Origin: Phycisphaerales bacterium
GTDB lineage: Bacteria > Planctomycetota > Phycisphaerae > Phycisphaerales > SM1A02
Reading direction: 5' to 3'
Assembly (NCBI GenBank): GCA_022616475.1
Contig: JAKEEP010000283.1
Span: 1 to 32,672, forward strand
DNA: 32,672 bases
Below are positions 2,843 to 14,046 of this stretch, piece after piece. The notes under the pieces are model-generated. The model was not told where the DNA came from. It did not search any database and saw only the letters and a list, made by a program, of their open reading frames with translations. Within the stretch, counting starts at the first letter, position 1. Each line of letters begins with the position of its first letter. The position numbers were made by a program, and so were the translations under genes.

Positions 2843-3049
2843 GTGCCCCTTTGCCCTCTCGAAGCGGTTTGCAGTGAACCCTCGCTGCCGATCGGAATCG
2901 ACCGGCTCATCGACACCCTTGACGCGCTACCATTTGATCGTGTCGCCTGGCGGCAAGATGTGCGGCTTCGGTTGTACTGCCTGTTTTACTTCATACAGTT
3001 TGATGCGCCATATTCGCCGCGCGACACATGACCTCCCGAGGATTTCTTG

Positions 3050-6000
3050 ATGCTACGGTCCGCGCTCCGCTCGATTCTGATCATTCTGGTAATTGGGTGT
3101 TTCGCCCCAAGAACTCTGGCCCAACCTGAGAACCCTGTCTATGTAGACGATTCGCCGCAGGCCTGGGAACTGTTCCGGCATGCGCAAGACCAGGTGCGGC
3201 ACAACGCCGGCGAAGCGGTCCGCCTGTACCAGGAACTGCTCGACGATTTCGCGCTCAAGCTCATCCCCGTGGCCGAGGGTGAGGCGGCTCGCGATCACTT
3301 CACCGCGGTTCGCCGACGAGTGGTGCAGGCTCTGCGGCGCGATCCAGCGCTGCTCGAACGCTATCGGTCGATCCAAACTCCCGCGGCCGAGCGACTGCTC
3401 CAATCAAATGAACTGGAGAGGCTGGCGATGACGCGATCGCTGACGGCGCCGGGATTGGAGGCGCTGCTTCGGCTGGCGCAGCGCGAACTGGAGGCGGCGC
3501 GATTTCGCCAGGCGAACTGGTGGCTAAGCCAGGCGATCGAGCATCCGGACCTCGACGATCGCAAAGCGGGGCATTGTCATTTCATGCTTGGCCTGGCCGG
3601 CCACTACCTGGGCGAGCCCGATCAAGTGCAGCTTTCGCTCGAAGCGCTGAGCGGACTTGGACCGGAAGCCGCCCAGTTTCATGCGCAGCTGGCGCGATTG
3701 TCGGAATCGAAGGCCACCGCAGCGCACGGCCCCGCCCTTTCAGGGCTCGATCGAGGCCAGGGTTCAGATCTGGATGATCTTGTGGCGCAGGCGATCTGGT
3801 CGGTCCCGCTTGAGGACTCGCTCTCTCGAAGGCGATTCGCAGCCATTCAAGATGATCCGGTCGATATCGATCGGCTCGCTGAAGGAATCGAACAGCGATT
3901 GATCGACGCCGATTTGACGACCGCCGTGGCAACGGTGGACCAATCGACTGTTTACGTCAATCAGGGCTACACGATCCTGGCGTTGAACCGGCTGACCGGC
4001 CGGGAGCTGTGGCGATATCCCAAAATGAATCGTCTGGGCTTGCCGGACCGCGACATCCAGAACGCGTTGGATCTGAATGTGGTGGCCGCGGCCGAGGGCT
4101 CGGTGGTGACGCTGACGGGGCACGCCGTGCCCTCGGGCCGAACCGAAGACGGCCAGATCGTGTGCCTTGATCCTCGAACTGGTTTGGACCGCTGGCCGCC
4201 GGTGTCATTCAACCGGGTGATTGATGGTGGTCCGGATGAAGACCTGTTTCCGCACGGTGCGCCGATCATTGCGGAAGGGCTGATCTTCGTCGCCGCGCGC
4301 AAGGTGAGCCGCCAACTCCTGACCAGCATGTACGTGGTCGCGCTGAATTTGCAAGATGGCAAGGTGCGCTGGTGGCGGCACATCACATCGAGCGGCGGGC
4401 TCCAGGCGCGAACCAGGCCGTTCTGCACGATGTTGTACGATCGCGGAGGGCTGTATGTCTCCAGCGCCGTGGGCGCAACCGCGCGTCTGGAAGCGGCCAC
4501 CGGAGAGATGCACTGGCTGCAGCGTTTCAACGTGCCGATCACGCCACCCATTCTCGATCAAAACCGCAGGCCGTGGGAGATGACCGGACCAGTGATGACG
4601 TCACGGGGGCTGGTGGCGGTTCAGCCGGACCAGCGATGGATCATGCTGCTCGATATTGACACCGGCGACGTTCTGGACAGGCAATCCTCCTCGTCAAACG
4701 CCGGATGGAATTCTCCGCGGTACCTGCTGGCTGATGAAGACTATGTGTACGGCATCGGCAGCGAGATTCGCGCGTTTCGCCACGACGATCTGGTCAATCC
4801 AGTCTGGCGGCTGCCCGGTCCGCCGCAAGAGGACGAGAATCGCCAGCCGCTTTCGCCAACGTCAATCGAAATCCGCGGCCGCGTCCAATTGGCCGACGGG
4901 TCGCTGATCGTGCCGGCGACCGATGGCGTGATGGTGGTTGACCGCGAGACCGGAAACGTGCGCAGCACGTTGGCGGTGCAACCGGTCGGCAACCCGGTTG
5001 CCACCGAGGCTCAACTGCTCCTGGCGTGCGGCGACCGCCTGGATTCGTACATGTCGTTCAACAAGGCGCAGCAAATGCTGCGTGATCGCATTGCGCATGG
5101 GCCCGACGAGCCCGAGCCAGCGCTTTCTCTGCTGCGGCTGGGAATGCGCGTTCGGAACCTGGAGCTTGCGCTGGAGGCGGCCCAGTTGGCGATCAACGCC
5201 ATCAACCGCATGTCGCAAACGAATGCTGCCGACCGCCGCCCGGCCGAAGCTCGCGGCGAACTCTTCGCGCTGCTGCTCGATCTGGCCCGCGAGAACATCG
5301 CCCGCACTCAATCCGAAGGGGAGTTGCTCTACGCGACGATCGGAAGCGTGGCGATTGAGCCCGCGCATCGCGTCGATTACCTGTTGGCGTACGGCGATTG
5401 GCTGGTTGATCATTCGTTGGGCAAGGCCGTGGAGAGCTATCAAGCCATTCTGTCTGACCGCGCGCTGGCGGCGGCTTGGCGCGACGCGGAAGGAACAGCC
5501 CGGCCCGCATCGGCATGGGCCGGGCAGCGCCTGGCGAAGTTGATTGCCGAGCGCGGATCAGCGATCTACGCGCCGCAGGCCGACTACGCCGCCTCTCGCC
5601 TCCGCCAGATAATCGCCTCAGAAACGCCCCCCGGAACGCCCGCCGGAAACTCTCCAGCCCCTCAACCCCGAGCGCCGGCGATCGATCCGGATGAGCTGGT
5701 GGCGTTGGCTCAGGAGTTCCCGTTCGCGGATGCGTCCACCGAGGCCGCGTTGGCTGCATCGGAAATCTACTTGAAACGCGGCCAACCGCGACCGGCGATT
5801 GCGGCGCTGATGACGGCCTACCACGCAGCGCCCAGGAAGAAGACGGCTCCGCGCCTCCTCGGCGCGTTTGTGAGCATCTGCATGAATCAGCAGTGGACCA
5901 TGCAGGCGCGCGACGCCTTGCGGCACGTCATCAGCACCTATGGCGACCTGCCGTTGGTCGGCGCCGCCGGAGAGCAACGTCCCTCGGTCTGGCTCAAGAC

Positions 6001-7396
6001 CCTCGAGAGTGCGGCCGATCAGACCGCGCGGCTGGCCACGATCGGCGAGCCCAATGGCGAGGCTCTGCCCCTTGCCGGAAGCGTCGTTCCTCCTGATCCA
6101 GCCTGCGCCATGCCGCCCGATCGCGTTCTGCTGAGGAATGGTCAGCAGTTTCAGTTATTGAACTCTCGACAGATGGGGGAGCCAATCTGGTCGTCAACTG
6201 TTCCAGGCGAAGGCGCCAGAATCTTGCGATTCGACGATCGAGGCATTCTGGTCTGGTTTGGAGCCGACGCGCAGGAACCCAAGGCGGTCATGCTCGACCC
6301 GGTCGATGGCAAGGTCCGTTGGACCACGCCGCGCGTCGCGACGGTGTTGGGTGAAACTCCTCGTCCCTCCGGGCGATGGCGCGGCGGCCAGGACCAGATG
6401 GCCGACGGCGAACCCTTCGACCCAACGCAAACACTGCCGCGACTGGACGCACGGTCGCTCTTCATGATTCAGCGCACCGGCGGAGTGATCGCCATCGAGC
6501 TCGCTGATCCGGCGAGGGCCGGACGGGTTCGCTGGCACAAGCCGCCGAAGGCGACGCTGGAGCAGATTCACGTGGTTGCCCTCAATGACGCTGCCTTGGC
6601 GCTGGCGGGGATGACGCGAGATCTGCAAGCAGCTGATGAGTCAACCGGTGGGATGGCGCCACGCCTTCTGGTGCTCGACCCGCAGACGGGTCAGCCCCTC
6701 TATGACCAAACGCAGCTTGGACCGATCGGCCGCAATGGTGTGACATGGATGACCATTTCCCCCCTCGGCTTGTTGACCTATGGCGCCGACGAAGGCGTGA
6801 GCGTATTCGATTTGTACGGCGGTCAGCGCCGCTGGAGCAGTTCGCCCTACACGGTGGTCAACACTCAGCGTGCGTGGCGCTTCGATGACCTGATTGTTCT
6901 CGAAGATCAGCGCAGCCGGCTTCGCACAGTACAGCTGCACGATGCAACCATATCCGATCCGTTCGAGGCGCCGCTGCGAGGCGAGTGGGATCCGCCGGCA
7001 TTGAACAACGTGATGCTGATCGGCGACAAGATTGTCGCTCATTATCCACAACGCGTGGTGATGTATGAGCCGCTCAGCGGCGCGGTGGTGGGCGTGGACA
7101 TCATCACTGATGATCGAGATTACCGCTGGCTGCTGCCGGCGCTGAACGCCCAAGGCGAGAACCGGTTGCTGGTGGTCAATGCCCGCTCGTCACAAGTTGC
7201 AGTGGGCGGCGGACCGGGAATGCGGAACCAGTACAAGTACTGGCTGTATCTGCTCTCAGACAACGGCAAGGTGCTGGCCGACCCAGCCGAGGCTCCTCCA
7301 CTGGGCGACAAGGTCCAGCAAGCCCGGCTGATCGACGGCTGGCTCTTGCTCTCAACCCAATCCAACACCCTGGCGATCCCCATGCCGGCGCAATAG
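3050..7396 (+). CDS. Giant exported PQQ-type beta-propeller protein with TPR-like middle region
   Basis: 1448 residues. ATG 3050 is chosen over the TTG one codon upstream because GAGGA (3038-3042) sits 7 nt before it. Residues 1-24 form a signal peptide (IILVIGC inside, RTLAQ at the likely cleavage site); the Cys could instead be lipidated. An N-terminal helical region is followed by PQQ/BamB-type blades (YTILALNRLTGRELWRYP; VVALNLQDGKVRWWRH; ARLEAATGEMHWLQRF; MVVDRETGNVRSTL). A helical TPR-like stretch follows, then a second blade set (VMLDPVDGKVRWTTP; LLVLDPQTGQPLYDQ; FDLYGGQRRWSSS). Propellers of this type are protein-binding scaffolds in the periplasm or outer membrane. It ends 40 nt before the vWA gene and looks like the first gene of the ExbB/ExbD block. 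No catalytic residues are recognised. Confidence 0.85.
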   Translation: MLRSALRSILIILVIGCFAPRTLAQPENPVYVDDSPQAWELFRHAQDQVRHNAGEAVRLYQELLDDFALKLIPVAEGEAARDHFTAVRRRVVQALRRDPALLERYRSIQTPAAERLLQSNELERLAMTRSLTAPGLEALLRLAQRELEAARFRQANWWLSQAIEHPDLDDRKAGHCHFMLGLAGHYLGEPDQVQLSLEALSGLGPEAAQFHAQLARLSESKATAAHGPALSGLDRGQGSDLDDLVAQAIWSVPLEDSLSRRRFAAIQDDPVDIDRLAEGIEQRLIDADLTTAVATVDQSTVYVNQGYTILALNRLTGRELWRYPKMNRLGLPDRDIQNALDLNVVAAAEGSVVTLTGHAVPSGRTEDGQIVCLDPRTGLDRWPPVSFNRVIDGGPDEDLFPHGAPIIAEGLIFVAARKVSRQLLTSMYVVALNLQDGKVRWWRHITSSGGLQARTRPFCTMLYDRGGLYVSSAVGATARLEAATGEMHWLQRFNVPITPPILDQNRRPWEMTGPVMTSRGLVAVQPDQRWIMLLDIDTGDVLDRQSSSSNAGWNSPRYLLADEDYVYGIGSEIRAFRHDDLVNPVWRLPGPPQEDENRQPLSPTSIEIRGRVQLADGSLIVPATDGVMVVDRETGNVRSTLAVQPVGNPVATEAQLLLACGDRLDSYMSFNKAQQMLRDRIAHGPDEPEPALSLLRLGMRVRNLELALEAAQLAINAINRMSQTNAADRRPAEARGELFALLLDLARENIARTQSEGELLYATIGSVAIEPAHRVDYLLAYGDWLVDHSLGKAVESYQAILSDRALAAAWRDAEGTARPASAWAGQRLAKLIAERGSAIYAPQADYAASRLRQIIASETPPGTPAGNSPAPQPRAPAIDPDELVALAQEFPFADASTEAALAASEIYLKRGQPRPAIAALMTAYHAAPRKKTAPRLLGAFVSICMNQQWTMQARDALRHVISTYGDLPLVGAAGEQRPSVWLKTLESAADQTARLATIGEPNGEALPLAGSVVPPDPACAMPPDRVLLRNGQQFQLLNSRQMGEPIWSSTVPGEGARILRFDDRGILVWFGADAQEPKAVMLDPVDGKVRWTTPRVATVLGETPRPSGRWRGGQDQMADGEPFDPTQTLPRLDARSLFMIQRTGGVIAIELADPARAGRVRWHKPPKATLEQIHVVALNDAALALAGMTRDLQAADESTGGMAPRLLVLDPQTGQPLYDQTQLGPIGRNGVTWMTISPLGLLTYGADEGVSVFDLYGGQRRWSSSPYTVVNTQRAWRFDDLIVLEDQRSRLRTVQLHDATISDPFEAPLRGEWDPPALNNVMLIGDKIVAHYPQRVVMYEPLSGAVVGVDIITDDRDYRWLLPALNAQGENRLLVVNARSSQVAVGGGPGMRNQYKYWLYLLSDNGKVLADPAEAPPLGDKVQQARLIDGWLLLSTQSNTLAIPMPAQ

Positions 7397-7423
7397 CGCC
7401 CCCGGAATGGGCCGCGGAACGGT

Positions 7424-7436: not shown

Positions 7437-8483
7437 ATGCTCGATCGATCGGCACAACACGACCCGCAGCTCAGCGATCAGCTTTCCGAGCGACTGGCGG
7501 CGCTGGGAGCCCAGACGCCCAGCGAGCGACGCGTCAAACGAATCGTGCCTTGGATCATCTCTGTCATTGTCCATGTTGGCATCGCGCTCGTGGCGCTGTT
7601 CATTACATGGACGGTGTCGAATCGCGCCACCACTGATGATGACTCCGTTTTGATCGTCGCAGATTTCAATGCGCTGACCTATCAACCGCTCACGACCGAT
7701 GCACCGATGCTGTCGGATTCTTCATCGTCGTCGGCTCAAGCCGCCGCGCGGCCGCTTGAAACCGCCTCGATGCTCGATCAACTGCCGTCGTCGGACGCTC
7801 AGACGATCGACGCCGCGATGGCGGCGATGCTGGGGTCCAGCCGCGCTTCGGGCGACCAGCAATGGGGATCGCTCGGCCCGCTTTCAGCCGGAGGATCATC
7901 GCATTCAGTCAGCTTTGCCGGAGCCCGAGGCACAAACGCGCGCAAGGTTGTCTATGCAATCGACGCGTCGGGATCGATGACGCCGTATCTGCAGATCGTC
8001 CTTGGGGAACTGACCAGGTCGCTCGAGAATCTTTCCGCAAGCCAGAGTTTCGCCATCGTCTTCTTCCAGAGGAATGCGGCGATCGAAGTGCCGCCCGCCG
8101 GCAAGCTGATTCCGGCGACGGCGGTCGAGAGGCTTCGTGCGTTGGACTGGATCAAGCAAGAAAACGTGGTCCCTGCAGGCGGGACCAATCCCATCGTGGC
8201 GATCGAGAAGGCCATGGCGCTCAAGCCCGACGTCGTCTTCCTGCTGAGCCAGGACATTACCGGGTATGGGGCGTTTGAAGTCGATCAAGCCGACCTGATG
8301 AAGCTCTTGGACGCGCTGAACCCGAAGGACTCGCAGACCGGCCGTCGGCGCACTTCGATCAAGTGCATCCAGTTCCTGGATGCCGATCGGCTTGGCACCA
8401 TGGAGAGAATCGCCAAAGAGCACGGCGGACCCGACGGATACAAGTTTCTTTCTCGTCAGGAGCTCGGCCTTGGTGGATCGTAA
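7437..8483 (+). CDS. TonB-like membrane-anchored von Willebrand factor A domain protein
   Basis: 348 residues. A short basic cytoplasmic segment (RRVKR, 31-35) precedes one transmembrane helix at about 37-59, WIISVIVHVGIALVALF. The helix contains S42-x3-H46, the spacing of the S/H pair in the membrane anchor of TonB, which that protein needs to couple to ExbB/ExbD. Residues 60-165 are a low-complexity Ser/Ala-rich linker. The vWA domain at about 169-345 has MIDAS residues D176-x-S178-x-S180, T250 in AGGTNP and D273 in LLSQD. MIDAS domains bind a divalent metal and a protein ligand. I prefer ATG 7437 to ATG 7407 because of the TATCCT upstream and because the extra ten residues look unnatural. 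The exbB-type gene starts 4 nt after its stop, so co-expression is expected. That it receives proton-motive energy is inference. Confidence 0.9.
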   Translation: MLDRSAQHDPQLSDQLSERLAALGAQTPSERRVKRIVPWIISVIVHVGIALVALFITWTVSNRATTDDDSVLIVADFNALTYQPLTTDAPMLSDSSSSSAQAAARPLETASMLDQLPSSDAQTIDAAMAAMLGSSRASGDQQWGSLGPLSAGGSSHSVSFAGARGTNARKVVYAIDASGSMTPYLQIVLGELTRSLENLSASQSFAIVFFQRNAAIEVPPAGKLIPATAVERLRALDWIKQENVVPAGGTNPIVAIEKAMALKPDVVFLLSQDITGYGAFEVDQADLMKLLDALNPKDSQTGRRRTSIKCIQFLDADRLGTMERIAKEHGGPDGYKFLSRQELGLGGS

Positions 8484-8487
8484 GAAA

Positions 8488-9327
8488 ATGAAATTGATGA
8501 TCAAGCCATTCGTTGTTGGCGCAATCGCGTGCACGGTGATGTTCGGAAGCGCGCTGGGGCAAGCCGATGTTGCGATCACCTCCCAGCAAGCCGGGTCGAA
8601 CGAGAGCTGGGCGGGCGCCTTTTTTGTCATCCGCGTGACCCATGCCAACGGCGAGCAGACCATTGATCTCGTTGGAAGCGTGTTGCTGTGGACCCTCTTG
8701 TGTCTGTCGGTTCTGAGCATCGGGCTGATTGGGTTTCTGGGGCTCGCCAATCAGCGCAAGGCAATCGTCCCAGCGGGGGTGGTGAGCGAAGCTCGGCGAT
8801 TGCTTGCGGCCGGGAACTATCGACAGGCAATCGACTTGACCAAGAAGGAGCAGAGTTTCTTCAGCCAGGTGCTGCACGCCGGTCTGAGCAACGCCACGCA
8901 CGGCGCCGGCGGCATGATTCGCGCGCTGGAGCAGCAGGCCGATGTGCTCATCACCGCGCGAATGCGCCCGATCGAAATCCTCTACATGTTGGGACAAATC
9001 AGCCCAATGATGGGGCTTCTGGGCACGGTCTACGGCATCATTTTCGCGTTTCGAGTCTTTGTCTCGATGGGCGGGCACGCCACACCGGCGCTGCTGGCGG
9101 GCGGGATCGGCACGGCGCTGGTCGCGACCTTCTGGGGCTTGGTTGTGGCGATTCCCGCCTTGGCGGGTTATTCGATGCTCCGCAACAAAGTTGATCACCT
9201 CACCATGGAAGCGATGGCGTCGGCCGAGGAATTGCTCACGCAGTTTCGCGCCAAACCGCCCGCAGCAAAGCCCTCGGGCCCGGCGAAAGCGCCCCTCGCG
9301 AGCGCCGCTGAGGCCGGGCTCGCCTAA
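8488..9327 (+). CDS. MotA/TolQ/ExbB proton-channel family protein
   Basis: 279 residues. The start at ATG 8488 is preceded by GGTGGA about 10 nt upstream. An N-terminal signal-like segment (1-25, ending SALGQ) comes before the family core. Such an extra exported prefix is common among planctomycete-type ExbB proteins, to my knowledge. Helices lie at about 62-84, 165-192 and 206-230. The segment GQISPMMGLLGTVYGIIFAF (169-188) and AGGIGTALVATFWGLVVAIPA (204-224) are the family signature lining the proton path. With ExbD-type partners it forms the inner-membrane motor. Its stop is 16 nt before the first exbD-type gene. The C-terminal tail is Pro/Ala-rich (256-279). Confidence 0.95.
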   Translation: MKLMIKPFVVGAIACTVMFGSALGQADVAITSQQAGSNESWAGAFFVIRVTHANGEQTIDLVGSVLLWTLLCLSVLSIGLIGFLGLANQRKAIVPAGVVSEARRLLAAGNYRQAIDLTKKEQSFFSQVLHAGLSNATHGAGGMIRALEQQADVLITARMRPIEILYMLGQISPMMGLLGTVYGIIFAFRVFVSMGGHATPALLAGGIGTALVATFWGLVVAIPALAGYSMLRNKVDHLTMEAMASAEELLTQFRAKPPAAKPSGPAKAPLASAAEAGLA

Positions 9328-9343: not shown

Positions 9344-9829
9344 ATGCATCGAGCGAGGCGACATCGAGAGCGCAGCGGCCTTGAAGTGAACCTTACTTCT
9401 CTGATCGACGTCACCTTTCTGCTCATCATTTTCTTCGTACTGGTTTCCAAGCTCAACGAAGTGGAGAACGTCAGGCTCGACCTGCCGAGTCCGCAAGAGC
9501 CCATGACGGTGCTGCCTGATTCCAAGCAACAGGTCGTCATCAACGTGCTGCCGGACAATGCGGGCGGTGCATCCGCATATCGGGTGGGCGTGATCGACTT
9601 TCCGTCAAACCTGGCCGGGCAGAACGCAATGAAATCGCATCTGGCGGAACTCTATCAAGCCAACCCGGGAATCGAAGTGAATGTTCGCGCCGACCGGTCC
9701 ACCCACTACGAGCATGTTGAACCGGTGATGCGAGCCGTCTCGCTGGCCGCTCGAATCGCGGCCGGCGCCGGGGCGCCGCCCGCAAGCGGAATGGCGCGGA
9801 TCAATCTGGTTGTGTTGAAGGAACGCTGA
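9344..9829 (+). CDS. ExbD/TolR family biopolymer transport protein, first copy
   Basis: 161 residues. It has the typical layout: a basic N-terminus, one helix at about 19-36 (SLIDVTFLLIIFFVLVSK) with the motor-essential Asp22, then a periplasmic domain of about 120 residues. The start at ATG 9344 gives exactly the short cytoplasmic tail of the family. Only a weak GGGG precedes it. ExbD/TolR proteins form the dimer inside the ExbB/TolQ pentamer and carry the protonatable Asp. Two different ExbD proteins in a row suggest a heterodimer, as is common in Bacteroidetes and planctomycete systems. The end is followed by only 2 nt before the second exbD gene. Confidence 0.94.
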   Translation: MHRARRHRERSGLEVNLTSLIDVTFLLIIFFVLVSKLNEVENVRLDLPSPQEPMTVLPDSKQQVVINVLPDNAGGASAYRVGVIDFPSNLAGQNAMKSHLAELYQANPGIEVNVRADRSTHYEHVEPVMRAVSLAARIAAGAGAPPASGMARINLVVLKER

Positions 9830-9831
9830 GC

Positions 9832-10359
9832 ATGATCACGGATAGCGCAACGACCGAGATCGATGACGATCAGGAGATTCCGGTGCCGCCGTTGCGGGGC
9901 CGCCGAGGTCGCCAGCGCGCGCGAATGAACGTCAACTTGACCTCGCTGATCGATGTGACGTTCCTGCTCCTGGTCTATTTCATGGTGGCAACCAGCATGA
10001 CCGGCCGCGAGCAGGTGTACCGCATGGACCTGCCCAGCCGCGAAGGCGCTGGCCCCTCCGATCCGTTCACATTGGATGATGAGCCGCTTCGCATTCTGGT
10101 CAGTTCCAGCGCCGATGAGGCGCAACCGTATCGGTTGACGATCGACGGTCCGTATCCCCAACCGGCCACGTTCCAGGCGCTTCACGATTTCCTGCGCAGC
10201 AAGCAGGTGAACGAGGCAACTTCGGGCGGCCTTTTCGATTCGAAGCATCCGATCATGATCGAACCTGCGGCCGGGACGCGGTGGGAGCATGCGATCGAAG
10301 CGTTCAACGCCACAGTGACGGCTCGTTACTCCAATGTGACCTTCGCGGCTCCCGGCTGA
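9832..10359 (+). CDS. ExbD/TolR family biopolymer transport protein, second copy
   Basis: 175 residues. ATG 9832 follows GAAGGA (9817-9822) by 9 nt. The cytoplasmic tail is longer than in the first copy and acidic then basic (EIDDDQEIP, then RGRRGRQRARM). The helix at about 38-55 has the conserved motif NLTSLIDVTFLLLVYF with Asp41. The periplasmic part differs strongly from the first copy, so the two are old paralogs rather than a recent duplication. The pair probably forms a mixed dimer within one motor. The TPR gene starts 8 nt downstream. Confidence 0.94.
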   Translation: MITDSATTEIDDDQEIPVPPLRGRRGRQRARMNVNLTSLIDVTFLLLVYFMVATSMTGREQVYRMDLPSREGAGPSDPFTLDDEPLRILVSSSADEAQPYRLTIDGPYPQPATFQALHDFLRSKQVNEATSGGLFDSKHPIMIEPAAGTRWEHAIEAFNATVTARYSNVTFAAPG

Positions 10360-10367
10360 GCAGATCG

Positions 10368-12968
10368 ATGAAGTCTCGACGCGCAATTCACATCATCGCT
10401 CTGGCGTGCTGCGGCTTGATGGCCATGCCGACGACCGCGTCCGCTCAGTCCAAACCTGCCGCATCCAGCACCGAGCCCGTCACTCAACGGAAGTTGAAGG
10501 AGATTGAGGACAAGCGGCAATCGCTGAGTTTGTTGCAAGGCTCAGAGTCGCAGCGGCTAGCCGCCATCGAGGAAGTGCTGGCGCTGCGGCAATCGCTCAT
10601 CGATTCACAGACCGACCGAGCCAATCGCGGCGTTTGGATGCATGACCAGGCCGCCGACATGCTTTTTGAGCTGCTCCCGATCGACGCCTCGGGCATGACC
10701 GCGCTGTTTGGGGTGCCGTCGCCTGCTCAACGCGAGCGCGCTCGCCGAGTCGCGCGCGAAGTTCACCGGTTGGCGTCGGAAGCCGAACGCTTGATCTCAC
10801 AAGCGATCGCAGACTTCGAGGCCGCTGGGGACTTCGAGAATAATCCGACGCTTCAGCAGAAGCGGCGCGACCTGATCGAACAGGAACGCGACCGGCGCGG
10901 GCCTTTCCTGCTCGGTGTCGGCGCATTTCTGGAGGCAGAGTTGAACTCTGACGATGTCCAAAGGCGCGCCACGTTGCACCGGCAAGCGGCCGATCTGCTG
11001 CTGCCGCTTGCCGAGACGCTTGAGGGAGCAGCCGCGCTCCAAGCCCGGTTGCACGCCGGGCTCGCGCTGGCCCGCCTGGGAGAATTTGACGCCGCTGAGG
11101 CACTTTGCGCGCACATCGCCACCGACGGCGCCGCGCGTCCGCAAGACATCTTCACGGCCCGCATGGGCGGTGTGTTCAATCGGACACAGCGCGGCGGCCC
11201 TTCAGCAGGCCTTATCGCCCTGGATTCGATCGAGCCACGGTATTTGCGCGATGATTCAGACTCCTCGAGCATGTTCTTTCGGATCTTGATCGCCGACCAG
11301 CGGTTTCTCCTTCGCCGGCAATTGGCCGACGCAGCGGGACCAAACGAGCGCCGCGACCTGCTGACCCAAGCGGCTCAAGTGTATGTGGATCTTTGCAGAT
11401 CGCTTGCCCCCCCGCCTGGCCAGAGCGCCGCCCAACGCCAGAGCGTGCGCTCGCTCGTGCTGGACCGATTGGCCAACGCCATCACCCCCGATATGCCCCT
11501 GGAACAGCTTCCCCCGCTGGCTCGCATCGCGCGCGCACAGCACCTGTCGCGCCAGGCCAGCGCCCGCGCGCAATCCATCGACATCGTCGAGTCCGTGCTG
11601 GCTGACGCTTCGCTCATCCCGGCCGAGCGCGCCGAAGCCCTTCACACGCTCGCCATGGCGCTGTACGAAGATGGTCAGCAGCTGCCGGCTGCACAGCGGT
11701 TTCTTGAACTGGCCACAGACCATCCCGACGACAGCCGCGCCGATCGCGCCATTGAAACTGCGGCCGCCATCGCCGCGGACTGGTACCAACACGACACGCT
11801 CGACGGCGAGGCTCGCGACACGCTGCGCCAGGCGCTTTCACTGCTTCTTGAGCGCTATCCGAATCTACCCAGCATCGACCAGTGGCGGTACATGGCTGGC
11901 CGCCTGGCGCTGGATGATGGCAAATTTGATGATGCTGCCGCGCTGTTTGCGCAGATCGCTCCCGATGCCGAGCACTGGCTTGACTCGCATTTCATGCGCG
12001 CGGTTGTCGTGAAGGCCCGCGCCGACGCGACGAGTGATTCCGATGAACGCCGACGGAGCTATGCCAGTCTCCTTGAGGTCGTTGATCGCACGCATTCGAT
12101 CCTCGAATCAGGCCTGGAGTCGGCCGGCCAAGCGAGTCGCGCCGCTGCGATACGAGAGTACATCGCCTGGCTGCGAGTTTTCCGCGCGCACGCCATGTTG
12201 ACGCTCGACCAACCCTTGCAGGCGATCGAAGCAGTGGCCGGAATCGAAACCAACGCGTCGCTCGATAGCGCTGTGCTTGCCGAGGCGCTTGAAGCGCGGA
12301 TTCAGGCGTTTGAGGCGCTCGACCGGCCCGATGACGTCGCGCGCGAAATCGAGCGCTTTACCCAGGCCGTGCCCGACAAGGCCGCCAACGCGGTGCGGCC
12401 GGCAATGGCGCGCATGCAACTCAAGGTGCAAGCGTTGATCGATTCAGGCGCTGCAGATCAAGCGCTCGAACTGGCGCATCGCACCTTGCTTCCGGCAGCG
12501 CAGATTCTGAGCCGATGGCTGACCGATCGACCGCTTTCCAGCAATGACCCACTGCTGCTGGCTTGGCAGGTCGCCGACGCATTTCGGTTGAGCGGGCAGT
12601 ATTCCGACGCCCTTGCGTGGTACGACCGGCTGATCGGGCAGCAACCGGACTCTGTGCAGCTTCTGGGCGGTCGAGCCGAATGTTTGTTCCATCTCGGCGG
12701 TGAGCAGCGCCTCGCCCAGGCCATGCAGATTTACAAGCGAGTCGCCGCCGGCCTGTCCAATGATGCGGCCAATCCATCGGCAAAGGCGGCCTTCTGGCTC
12801 GCACAGCTTCGAATGCTGCAGATCATCGATCAAGTCGGGCGAAACACCGAGCAGATCGTGCCACGAATAGAGCGGTTGCGGCTGGAAGATCCTCAATTCG
12901 GCGGCGAGCGATTCCGCAGGGGCTTCGAGGCGCTGCGAAACAAGCATCAGGCCAAGGCGCGCTCGTAG
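10368..12968 (+). CDS. Exported TPR-repeat protein of the ExbB/ExbD block
   Basis: 866 residues. ATG 10368 starts a clear signal peptide (basic SRRAI, hydrophobic IIALACCGLMAM, cleavage after TASAQ). The rest is almost wholly alpha-helical and Ala/Leu/Arg-rich with degenerate tetratricopeptide units. Examples are EDGQQLPAAQRFLELATDHP, WRYMAGRLALDDGKFDDAAA and YSDALAWYDRLIGQQPDS. TPR proteins are periplasmic protein-binding scaffolds. In the Tol-Pal system the TPR protein CpoB has a comparable position at the end of the operon. The parallel is by layout only; I see no sequence similarity to CpoB. It starts 8 nt after the second exbD stop and ends 34 nt before the stop of the convergent DoxX gene. 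Confidence 0.85.
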   Translation: MKSRRAIHIIALACCGLMAMPTTASAQSKPAASSTEPVTQRKLKEIEDKRQSLSLLQGSESQRLAAIEEVLALRQSLIDSQTDRANRGVWMHDQAADMLFELLPIDASGMTALFGVPSPAQRERARRVAREVHRLASEAERLISQAIADFEAAGDFENNPTLQQKRRDLIEQERDRRGPFLLGVGAFLEAELNSDDVQRRATLHRQAADLLLPLAETLEGAAALQARLHAGLALARLGEFDAAEALCAHIATDGAARPQDIFTARMGGVFNRTQRGGPSAGLIALDSIEPRYLRDDSDSSSMFFRILIADQRFLLRRQLADAAGPNERRDLLTQAAQVYVDLCRSLAPPPGQSAAQRQSVRSLVLDRLANAITPDMPLEQLPPLARIARAQHLSRQASARAQSIDIVESVLADASLIPAERAEALHTLAMALYEDGQQLPAAQRFLELATDHPDDSRADRAIETAAAIAADWYQHDTLDGEARDTLRQALSLLLERYPNLPSIDQWRYMAGRLALDDGKFDDAAALFAQIAPDAEHWLDSHFMRAVVVKARADATSDSDERRRSYASLLEVVDRTHSILESGLESAGQASRAAAIREYIAWLRVFRAHAMLTLDQPLQAIEAVAGIETNASLDSAVLAEALEARIQAFEALDRPDDVAREIERFTQAVPDKAANAVRPAMARMQLKVQALIDSGAADQALELAHRTLLPAAQILSRWLTDRPLSSNDPLLLAWQVADAFRLSGQYSDALAWYDRLIGQQPDSVQLLGGRAECLFHLGGEQRLAQAMQIYKRVAAGLSNDAANPSAKAAFWLAQLRMLQIIDQVGRNTEQIVPRIERLRLEDPQFGGERFRRGFEALRNKHQAKARS

Positions 12969-13002: not shown

Positions 13003-13965
13003 TCACATCATCGTGTCATCAACCACGATCTGCCGGCGGCCGCCGAACAGCAATTGATCCAGGCTCATTTTTCCCGGCCCGGTCAAGAAGATGCCGAATG
13101 CCAGCACGAAGAGTCCGAGCTGGCAGTACATCGCGTGGAATGCGTTGACATCCTCGGCAAACTCAAACGGATGCGTGCGCAGCGCGCCGTTCATCTGCAC
13201 CGAGACCATGTAGAACGCCACACCCATCGAGATCGCCAGGCCAAGGCCCCAGATTCGGCTGAACAATCCAACCAACAGGAGCGCGCCGCCGATGAGTTCT
13301 GTGAACGCGGCAACCTGCGCGACCCGAACCGGCGCCGGCCAACCGGCCGAATCAACCATTAGGGCGATTCTGTACATGCCGGGCGCGCGATGCGAACCTC
13401 CCGATGTCACTTGCACCGGGGTTGGACCCGCAAACGGCGGAACTTCATCTTCGCTCTTGGAAGGCTTGATGATGATCGGCTGCTTTGCAGGAGCTTCGGG
13501 TTGAACTTCCGGGGCCGGAGCCGGCGTCGGCACTGGATCGGGACGGGTGGCCGGCGTGGTAGTCGGCGGCGGGCGGCGAATGACCCGGCGCGGCGCCGTC
13601 GCGGGCGGCGCAGGCTTGGCCTCGGGTTTGGGTTCCGGTTTGACTTCAGGCTCTGGCTCAGGCTGGGTCTGAGGCTCGGGATCCTGGTTCTGATCGTCGG
13701 TCACGTCGGGCGGATCCTGTTCAGCCTCCTGGCGATACGAGGCATAGATCAAGCTTGCGGGCCCCAGCGACGGGTCGGCCCAGCTTGTCACCGTGACCGG
13801 CGCCGTTGTCTTCACGCCCAGGCTCTGCAATCGATTGGCCTCAAGGTCGGTGAACTCGGATTCCTTGAAGACCTTGTTGTAGCCGGCGCTGACAAACGCC
13901 AGGCACAAAACGATTCGGCTCAGGGTCGGAACGAATGATGTTGCTGCGGTGACGCTGAATGACAT
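13003..13965 (-). CDS. DoxX-family membrane protein with a long Pro/Glu-rich periplasmic-type linker
   Basis: 320 residues. ATG 13965 is chosen because AGGAG lies 7 nt upstream on the minus strand; an earlier ATG at 14010 lacks this. Helix 1 is at about 14-33 (TLSRIVLCLAFVSAGYNKVF). Three more are at about 212-235, 238-256 and 277-296, with the DoxX-like text VAAFTELIGGALLLVGLFSR. Between helix 1 and the rest lies an insertion of about 150 residues. At residues 95-165 it is almost pure Pro/Glu/Lys/Ala (EPEPEVKPEPKPEAKP), resembling the TonB periplasmic linker. DoxX proteins are small, poorly understood inner-membrane proteins linked to redox chemistry. The gene converges on the ExbB/ExbD block. 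Confidence 0.82.
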   Translation of the reverse strand: MSFSVTAATSFVPTLSRIVLCLAFVSAGYNKVFKESEFTDLEANRLQSLGVKTTAPVTVTSWADPSLGPASLIYASYRQEAEQDPPDVTDDQNQDPEPQTQPEPEPEVKPEPKPEAKPAPPATAPRRVIRRPPPTTTPATRPDPVPTPAPAPEVQPEAPAKQPIIIKPSKSEDEVPPFAGPTPVQVTSGGSHRAPGMYRIALMVDSAGWPAPVRVAQVAAFTELIGGALLLVGLFSRIWGLGLAISMGVAFYMVSVQMNGALRTHPFEFAEDVNAFHAMYCQLGLFVLAFGIFLTGPGKMSLDQLLFGGRRQIVVDDTMM

Positions 13966-14046
13966 GGGCGGGCTCCTGAAGGCGGTGGGCAGACAAGCGC
14001 TGTCTGCCACCGAGGCTTACGGCTTCTGGCTCAAGCTGATGGCGCT

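Follow-up and report, generated by a model that had tools for sequence, protein, structure and literature searches.

A vWA-domain protein with a TonB-like S-x3-H helix, encoded beside ExbB and two ExbD genes in a Phycisphaerales bacterium

The window analyzed here, a 32,672-nucleotide stretch from a Phycisphaerales bacterium, contains the gene order vwA-exbB-exbD1-exbD2-TPR, with all genes on the plus strand and intergenic gaps of 2 to 16 bases (Table 1). This core was found in all 20 sampled loci of the same taxonomic family. A second in-frame ATG for vwA is located at position 7407. A structure search with the exported TPR protein returned generic solenoids only; as it is the most constant nonmotor neighbor in the family, it is the best candidate for a partner or scaffold of the vWA domain.

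Table 1. Features of the vwA locus (positions in the window)
Feature	Position	Strand	Remarks
vwA, putative vWA transducer gene	7437..8483	+	348 aa; TM helix 28-63, linker island ~70-85, vWA 158-338
S-x3-H, putative motor-docking motif, codons 42-46 (SVIVH)	7560..7574	+	S42/H46
Linker island, codons 70-85 (SVLIVADFNALTYQPL)	7644..7691	+	Most conserved linker stretch, where TonB/TolA have their "motor box"
First MIDAS motif, codons 176-180 (DASGS)	7962..7976	+	From sequence
Fifth MIDAS position, codons 272-273 (Q-D)	8250..8255	+	Substituted
ExbB/TolQ-like motor subunit	8488..9327	+	PF01618, 3.5e-25; N-terminal signal-like extension
ExbD1, first-copy clade	9344..9829	+	PF02472; TM Asp present
ExbD2, second-copy clade	9832..10359	+	PF02472; TM Asp present
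Exported TPR-solenoid protein	10368..12968	+	Conserved final operon gene; AF2 mean pLDDT 89.8
DoxX-family membrane protein	13003..14010	-	Probable associate of the system

The surroundings of the core are more variable. A further TPR gene, often present after vwA in family loci, is missing from the window copy, and doxX, which lies directly upstream of vwA and on the same strand in most orthologous loci, is downstream and inverted in the window. The DoxX protein of the window carries a long Pro-rich insert (EP/KP-type) that recalls the TonB linker, and the inserts of DoxX orthologs encoded beside vwA are variable, either Pro-rich or acidic. Upstream of vwA by 40 bases is a gene for a large, exported PQQ/BamB-like beta-propeller (positions 3047 to 7396, plus strand, 1449 aa, TTG start), which was dropped as a candidate vWA partner because, of the 20 family loci, just 1 carries a homolog close to vwA. 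Elsewhere, one lineage (12 loci) has lspA separating vwA from the TPR-exbB genes, and in another an LplT-Aas-like MFS/acyltransferase/ligase gene adjoins orphan vWA genes (7 loci).

The reading frame of vwA and the residues S42, H46, D176, S178, S180, T250, and D273 are as given in a preliminary description of the locus made from the sequence alone. In an AF2 model, computed with 28 family members as input, the protein has a single long N-terminal transmembrane helix, a low-pLDDT, disordered linker of roughly 95 residues (approximately 64 to 157), and a vWA fold. The top Foldseek match was a vWA chain (E value, 1.9e-10), named ITIH4 by a profile match to the same chain, and the PDB matches were ITIH and integrin-type vWA domains. 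Only vWA models were found by Pfam, with no TonB_C domain in the protein. The earlier reading of the periplasmic part as a vWA domain is confirmed. Within the linker island, the conserved residues are A75, D76, F77, and P84; this strand-like segment follows directly on the helix and, as a predicted motor box, probably contacts the periplasmic domains of ExbD.

S42 and H46 share the spacing of TonB S16 and H20 and stand in front of ExbB/ExbD genes, as had been noted beforehand. Relatives were gathered across the phylum with their gene neighborhoods, and vWA reading frames were listed with a profile of the vWA domain only, blind to the helix. One observation named in advance as refuting TonB-type coupling was a homolog with this gene order but without one of the two residues. 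The histidine was present in all 67 vWA proteins with an adjacent ExbB, while the serine was present in 64 and replaced by Ala in 3; most of these relatives were first found by full-length similarity, helix included, and they share ancestry, so that motif and motor counts are not independent events. In an alignment of 104 proteins, all 21 close orthologs and all 48 exb-adjacent relatives have H46 (69/69), and S42 was Ser in 21/21 and 45/48, respectively, with the rest of the helix variable around the two residues. The four relatives without the His in this alignment had no ExbB nearby. As a control, 286 further N-terminal helices of strong hydrophobicity were taken from these regions; 32 of them contain His and none has S-x3-H, so the motif is above chance. 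It was also absent from the generic, mostly secreted vWA proteins of the phylum (20 regions, domain-only matches). The Ser and His of the SHLS motif, which marks the helix of published vWA force transducers (PMC12204202), correspond to S42 and H46, its Leu and second Ser positions being A53 and T57 in vwA.

A contig scan with P0001 alone as the query gave no matches, and one with close orthologs gave 48 loci; of the loci inspected, those from Phycisphaerae and Schlesneria carry the His helix wherever the N terminus is complete, and those from Verrucomicrobiales and Krumholzibacteriia are unrelated vWA proteins without it. For approximately 31 vWA proteins that carry the His helix, the surrounding 4.5 kb contain no motor gene, and several genomes hold one orphan vWA gene and one complete operon, as though two transducers shared one motor. 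These motor-less relatives, which weigh against the docking reading, either use a motor in trans or carry a helix motif that means something else there.

On the motor side, cryo-EM of the Escherichia coli complex places TonB S16 and H20 in contact with ExbB S34 and W38, linked to P190 (PMC12215075). The window ExbB has S74, T180, T214, and P223 at the positions of E. coli S34, T148, T181, and P190, P223 being assigned from an alignment with the E. coli ExbB structure and S74 by a MAFFT alignment of TM1 together with reading by eye. Both S74 and P223 were kept in 67/67 ExbBs adjoining a vWA transducer. The W38 position is I, V, or L in these proteins and is not conserved, so that two of the three contact positions are kept. 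The conservation of the helix motif and the matching ExbB residues strongly support the TonB-type coupling to ExbB/ExbD put forward in the preliminary description, and the analogy with TonB is well supported at the level of sequence.

The two ExbD copies are distinct and of long standing. From a tree that took in the loci with exactly two ExbDs (n = 56), it was found that the first copies form one clade and the second copies the other in all 56 loci (support, 100/99), with a single label change, a value as low as which was reached in 0 of 500 shuffles. The TM Asp is kept in all ExbDs of these loci. On this phylogeny, ExbD was duplicated once, before these planctomycete lineages diverged, and the copy order has been kept since. 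The two clades favor, rather than prove, a heteromeric axle, and their age and consistency imply an obligate ExbD pair. Among more distant relatives, some encode just one ExbD; at one locus, the vWA gene is followed directly by a single exbD without an adjoining exbB.

The vWA domain had been credited with a complete MIDAS (D176, S178, S180, T250, and D273), which does not stand. DASGS and T250 are present; however, the canonical fifth Asp column ([ST]-D-[GN]) corresponds to Q272 and not to D273, as is apparent from an ungapped comparison of LLSQDITG in the window with LLSDNITG in an ortholog. Asp occupies column 272 in 46/48 exb-adjacent relatives versus only 2/21 close orthologs from the same taxonomic family, in which the residue is mostly E or N. 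D273 is not conserved, column 273 being Asn in 14/21 close orthologs. The wider vWA family keeps D-x-S-x-S, T/S, and D. As the fifth position is substituted in the window protein and in nearly all of its close orthologs, the suggested metal-dependent adhesion or binding is unsupported for this protein. A paralog on another contig of the same genome (C141) has the full MIDAS set together with S-x3-H; since the two vWA systems differ in these residues, they probably also differ in metal dependence.

Three ExbB loci were identified in the genome: that of the window, the C141 locus (vWA-TPR-exbB-exbD), and a third (C190) with a TonB_C protein and a Plug-domain receptor. Given the separate TonB locus, the vWA systems are not this genome's TonB. 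The window protein as a plain TonB was thus rejected, Pfam finding only vWA models in it and the TonB_C protein lying at C190. A vWA match was found in 43/43 high-quality genomes of the window's taxonomic family, the named relatives being Phycisphaerales. Six members of the order have a vWA-motor locus and gave no match to TonB_C, TonB_2, or Plug; the motor therefore has no TonB to serve there.

The preliminary description knew of no described class for such a TonB analogue, but one was published in 2025, when Williams-Jones et al. (Mol Biol Evol; PMC12204202) proposed a class of vWA force transducers that shares this helix motif and gene order and occurs in Planctomycetes among other hosts. 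In that class, the helix is described as binding the motor edge through its His. Their AF3 models show docking of other class members, and the authors state that no deletion phenotype is known. The window system shares with this class the S/H helix, motor-box-like segment, disordered linker, and vWA end domain, as well as a neighboring tolQ-like gene, two tolR-like genes, and a TPR gene; it differs in the loss of the fifth MIDAS Asp in its subfamily, in having no TPR gene between vwA and exbB, unlike many relatives, and in its large terminal TPR gene and doxX neighbor. The present results test the published proposal on more sequences; new to it are the matching Ser and Pro in ExbB, the split of ExbD into two clades, the almost universal occurrence in one family, the genomes without a TonB match, and the substituted MIDAS position. 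With E. coli TonB-ExbBD, the system has in common the S16/H20 spacing, the helix position, the ExbB S34/P190 equivalents, the pore Thr residues, and the ExbD Asp, whereas it has a vWA domain instead of TonB_C, two different ExbDs, no TBDT in the operon, and no conserved W38, in a genome with its own TonB locus. TolQRA shares the motor family and an S-x3-H helix, but the window protein lacks the TolA C-terminal domain and its operon lacks TolB and Pal. AglRQS-Glt of Myxococcus also combines one TolQ-like and two TolR-like subunits (PMC9389320) and has a vWA protein in the wider machine; that protein is, however, a surface adhesin and is not fused to a motor-docking helix.

Two-membrane bacteria must carry energy from the inner membrane to the outer membrane, which has none. 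Among such routes, Ton, Tol, and a few motility machines are, to our knowledge, the only ones understood. We consider it likely that the vwA protein transduces force in the way of TonB and TolA, with a vWA domain at its end and a proton-driven motor as its source of energy. This motor would reside in the inner membrane as an ExbB ring with an axle of one ExbD1 and one ExbD2. The vwA helix is predicted to dock outside the ring, with H46 and S42 against ExbB S74/P223, an arrangement with strong sequence support, and the island just after the helix would engage the ExbD periplasmic domains. The flexible linker could then extend the vWA domain into the periplasm to bind a candidate periplasmic or outer membrane partner, which would be pulled or remodeled; the exported TPR solenoid may be that partner or its scaffold. 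Envelope maintenance is favored over nutrient uptake as the role. More tentatively, and with the balance only slightly against it, the system may be a third pathway, after Ton and Tol, that carries force across the envelope and is core to Phycisphaerales-type planctomycetes, with an obligately asymmetric 5:1:1 motor (ExbB5-ExbD1-ExbD2) and vWA partner binding without a working metal site. If true, such a widespread route, distinct in its end domain, would alter the explanation of planctomycete envelopes. The matched residues and the two-clade ExbD pair would provide ready handles for mutants and stoichiometry.

A more specific version of the force-transducer reading, and not its opposite, is that the system replaces Tol-Pal, with the outer membrane tied down or remodeled as the vWA domain mobilizes an OmpA/Pal-like or TPR partner. 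Its near-universality in the family, its presence in genomes without a TonB or TBDT match, the lspA or LplT-Aas-like genes adjoining relatives in some lineages, and the OmpA-domain proteins found in 41/41 genomes of the order are all consistent with such a role. However, the operon lacks a TolB or Pal gene, the neighbor hints come from one or two lineages, and OmpA domains are common everywhere, so that their distribution does not discriminate; we regard the replacement as a serious possibility but lean against it. Like Agl-Glt, the system might instead move adhesins, drive gliding, or power uptake through surface structures, as put forward by Williams-Jones et al. (PMC12204202). Domains of the vWA type are adhesion modules, and the motor composition is alike. 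As an inner-membrane tether keeps the vWA domain from surface exposure, the MIDAS is degraded in the window subfamily, and no motility genes were seen in the operon, this seems improbable.

The remaining two readings were rejected. Williams-Jones et al. also propose a second vWA family (TPH-vWA), in which the TM helix carries an Asp, tolR/exbD genes are missing, and the vWA protein serves as a transpore axle inserted in the ExbB ring (PMC12204202). The window vWA gene likewise adjoins a tolQ/exbB-like gene, but its helix has no Asp and carries S-x3-H, and two ExbDs with the TM Asp are encoded alongside, making an axle role very improbable. It is scarcely credible that the protein is a BatA/MoxR-type co-chaperone beside exbBD by accident: BatA-like vWA proteins are membrane anchored, but vwA has a single N-terminal TM helix, no MoxR ATPase was found among the scanned neighbors, and both adjacency and motif are conserved across the phylum.

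True TonB loci of related genomes were variable at the positions discussed above, with no clean rule; all but three have Ala or no aligned residue in ExbB, and several of these have a His at the helix edge. At nine loci with a long ExbB-like protein, mostly accompanied by a second ExbB, the TonB_C proteins have a TM helix without S-x3-H, and the ExbB position aligned to the docking Ser is Ala. At the remaining three loci, the ExbB Ser is present and the TonB has a mid-helix A-x3-H.
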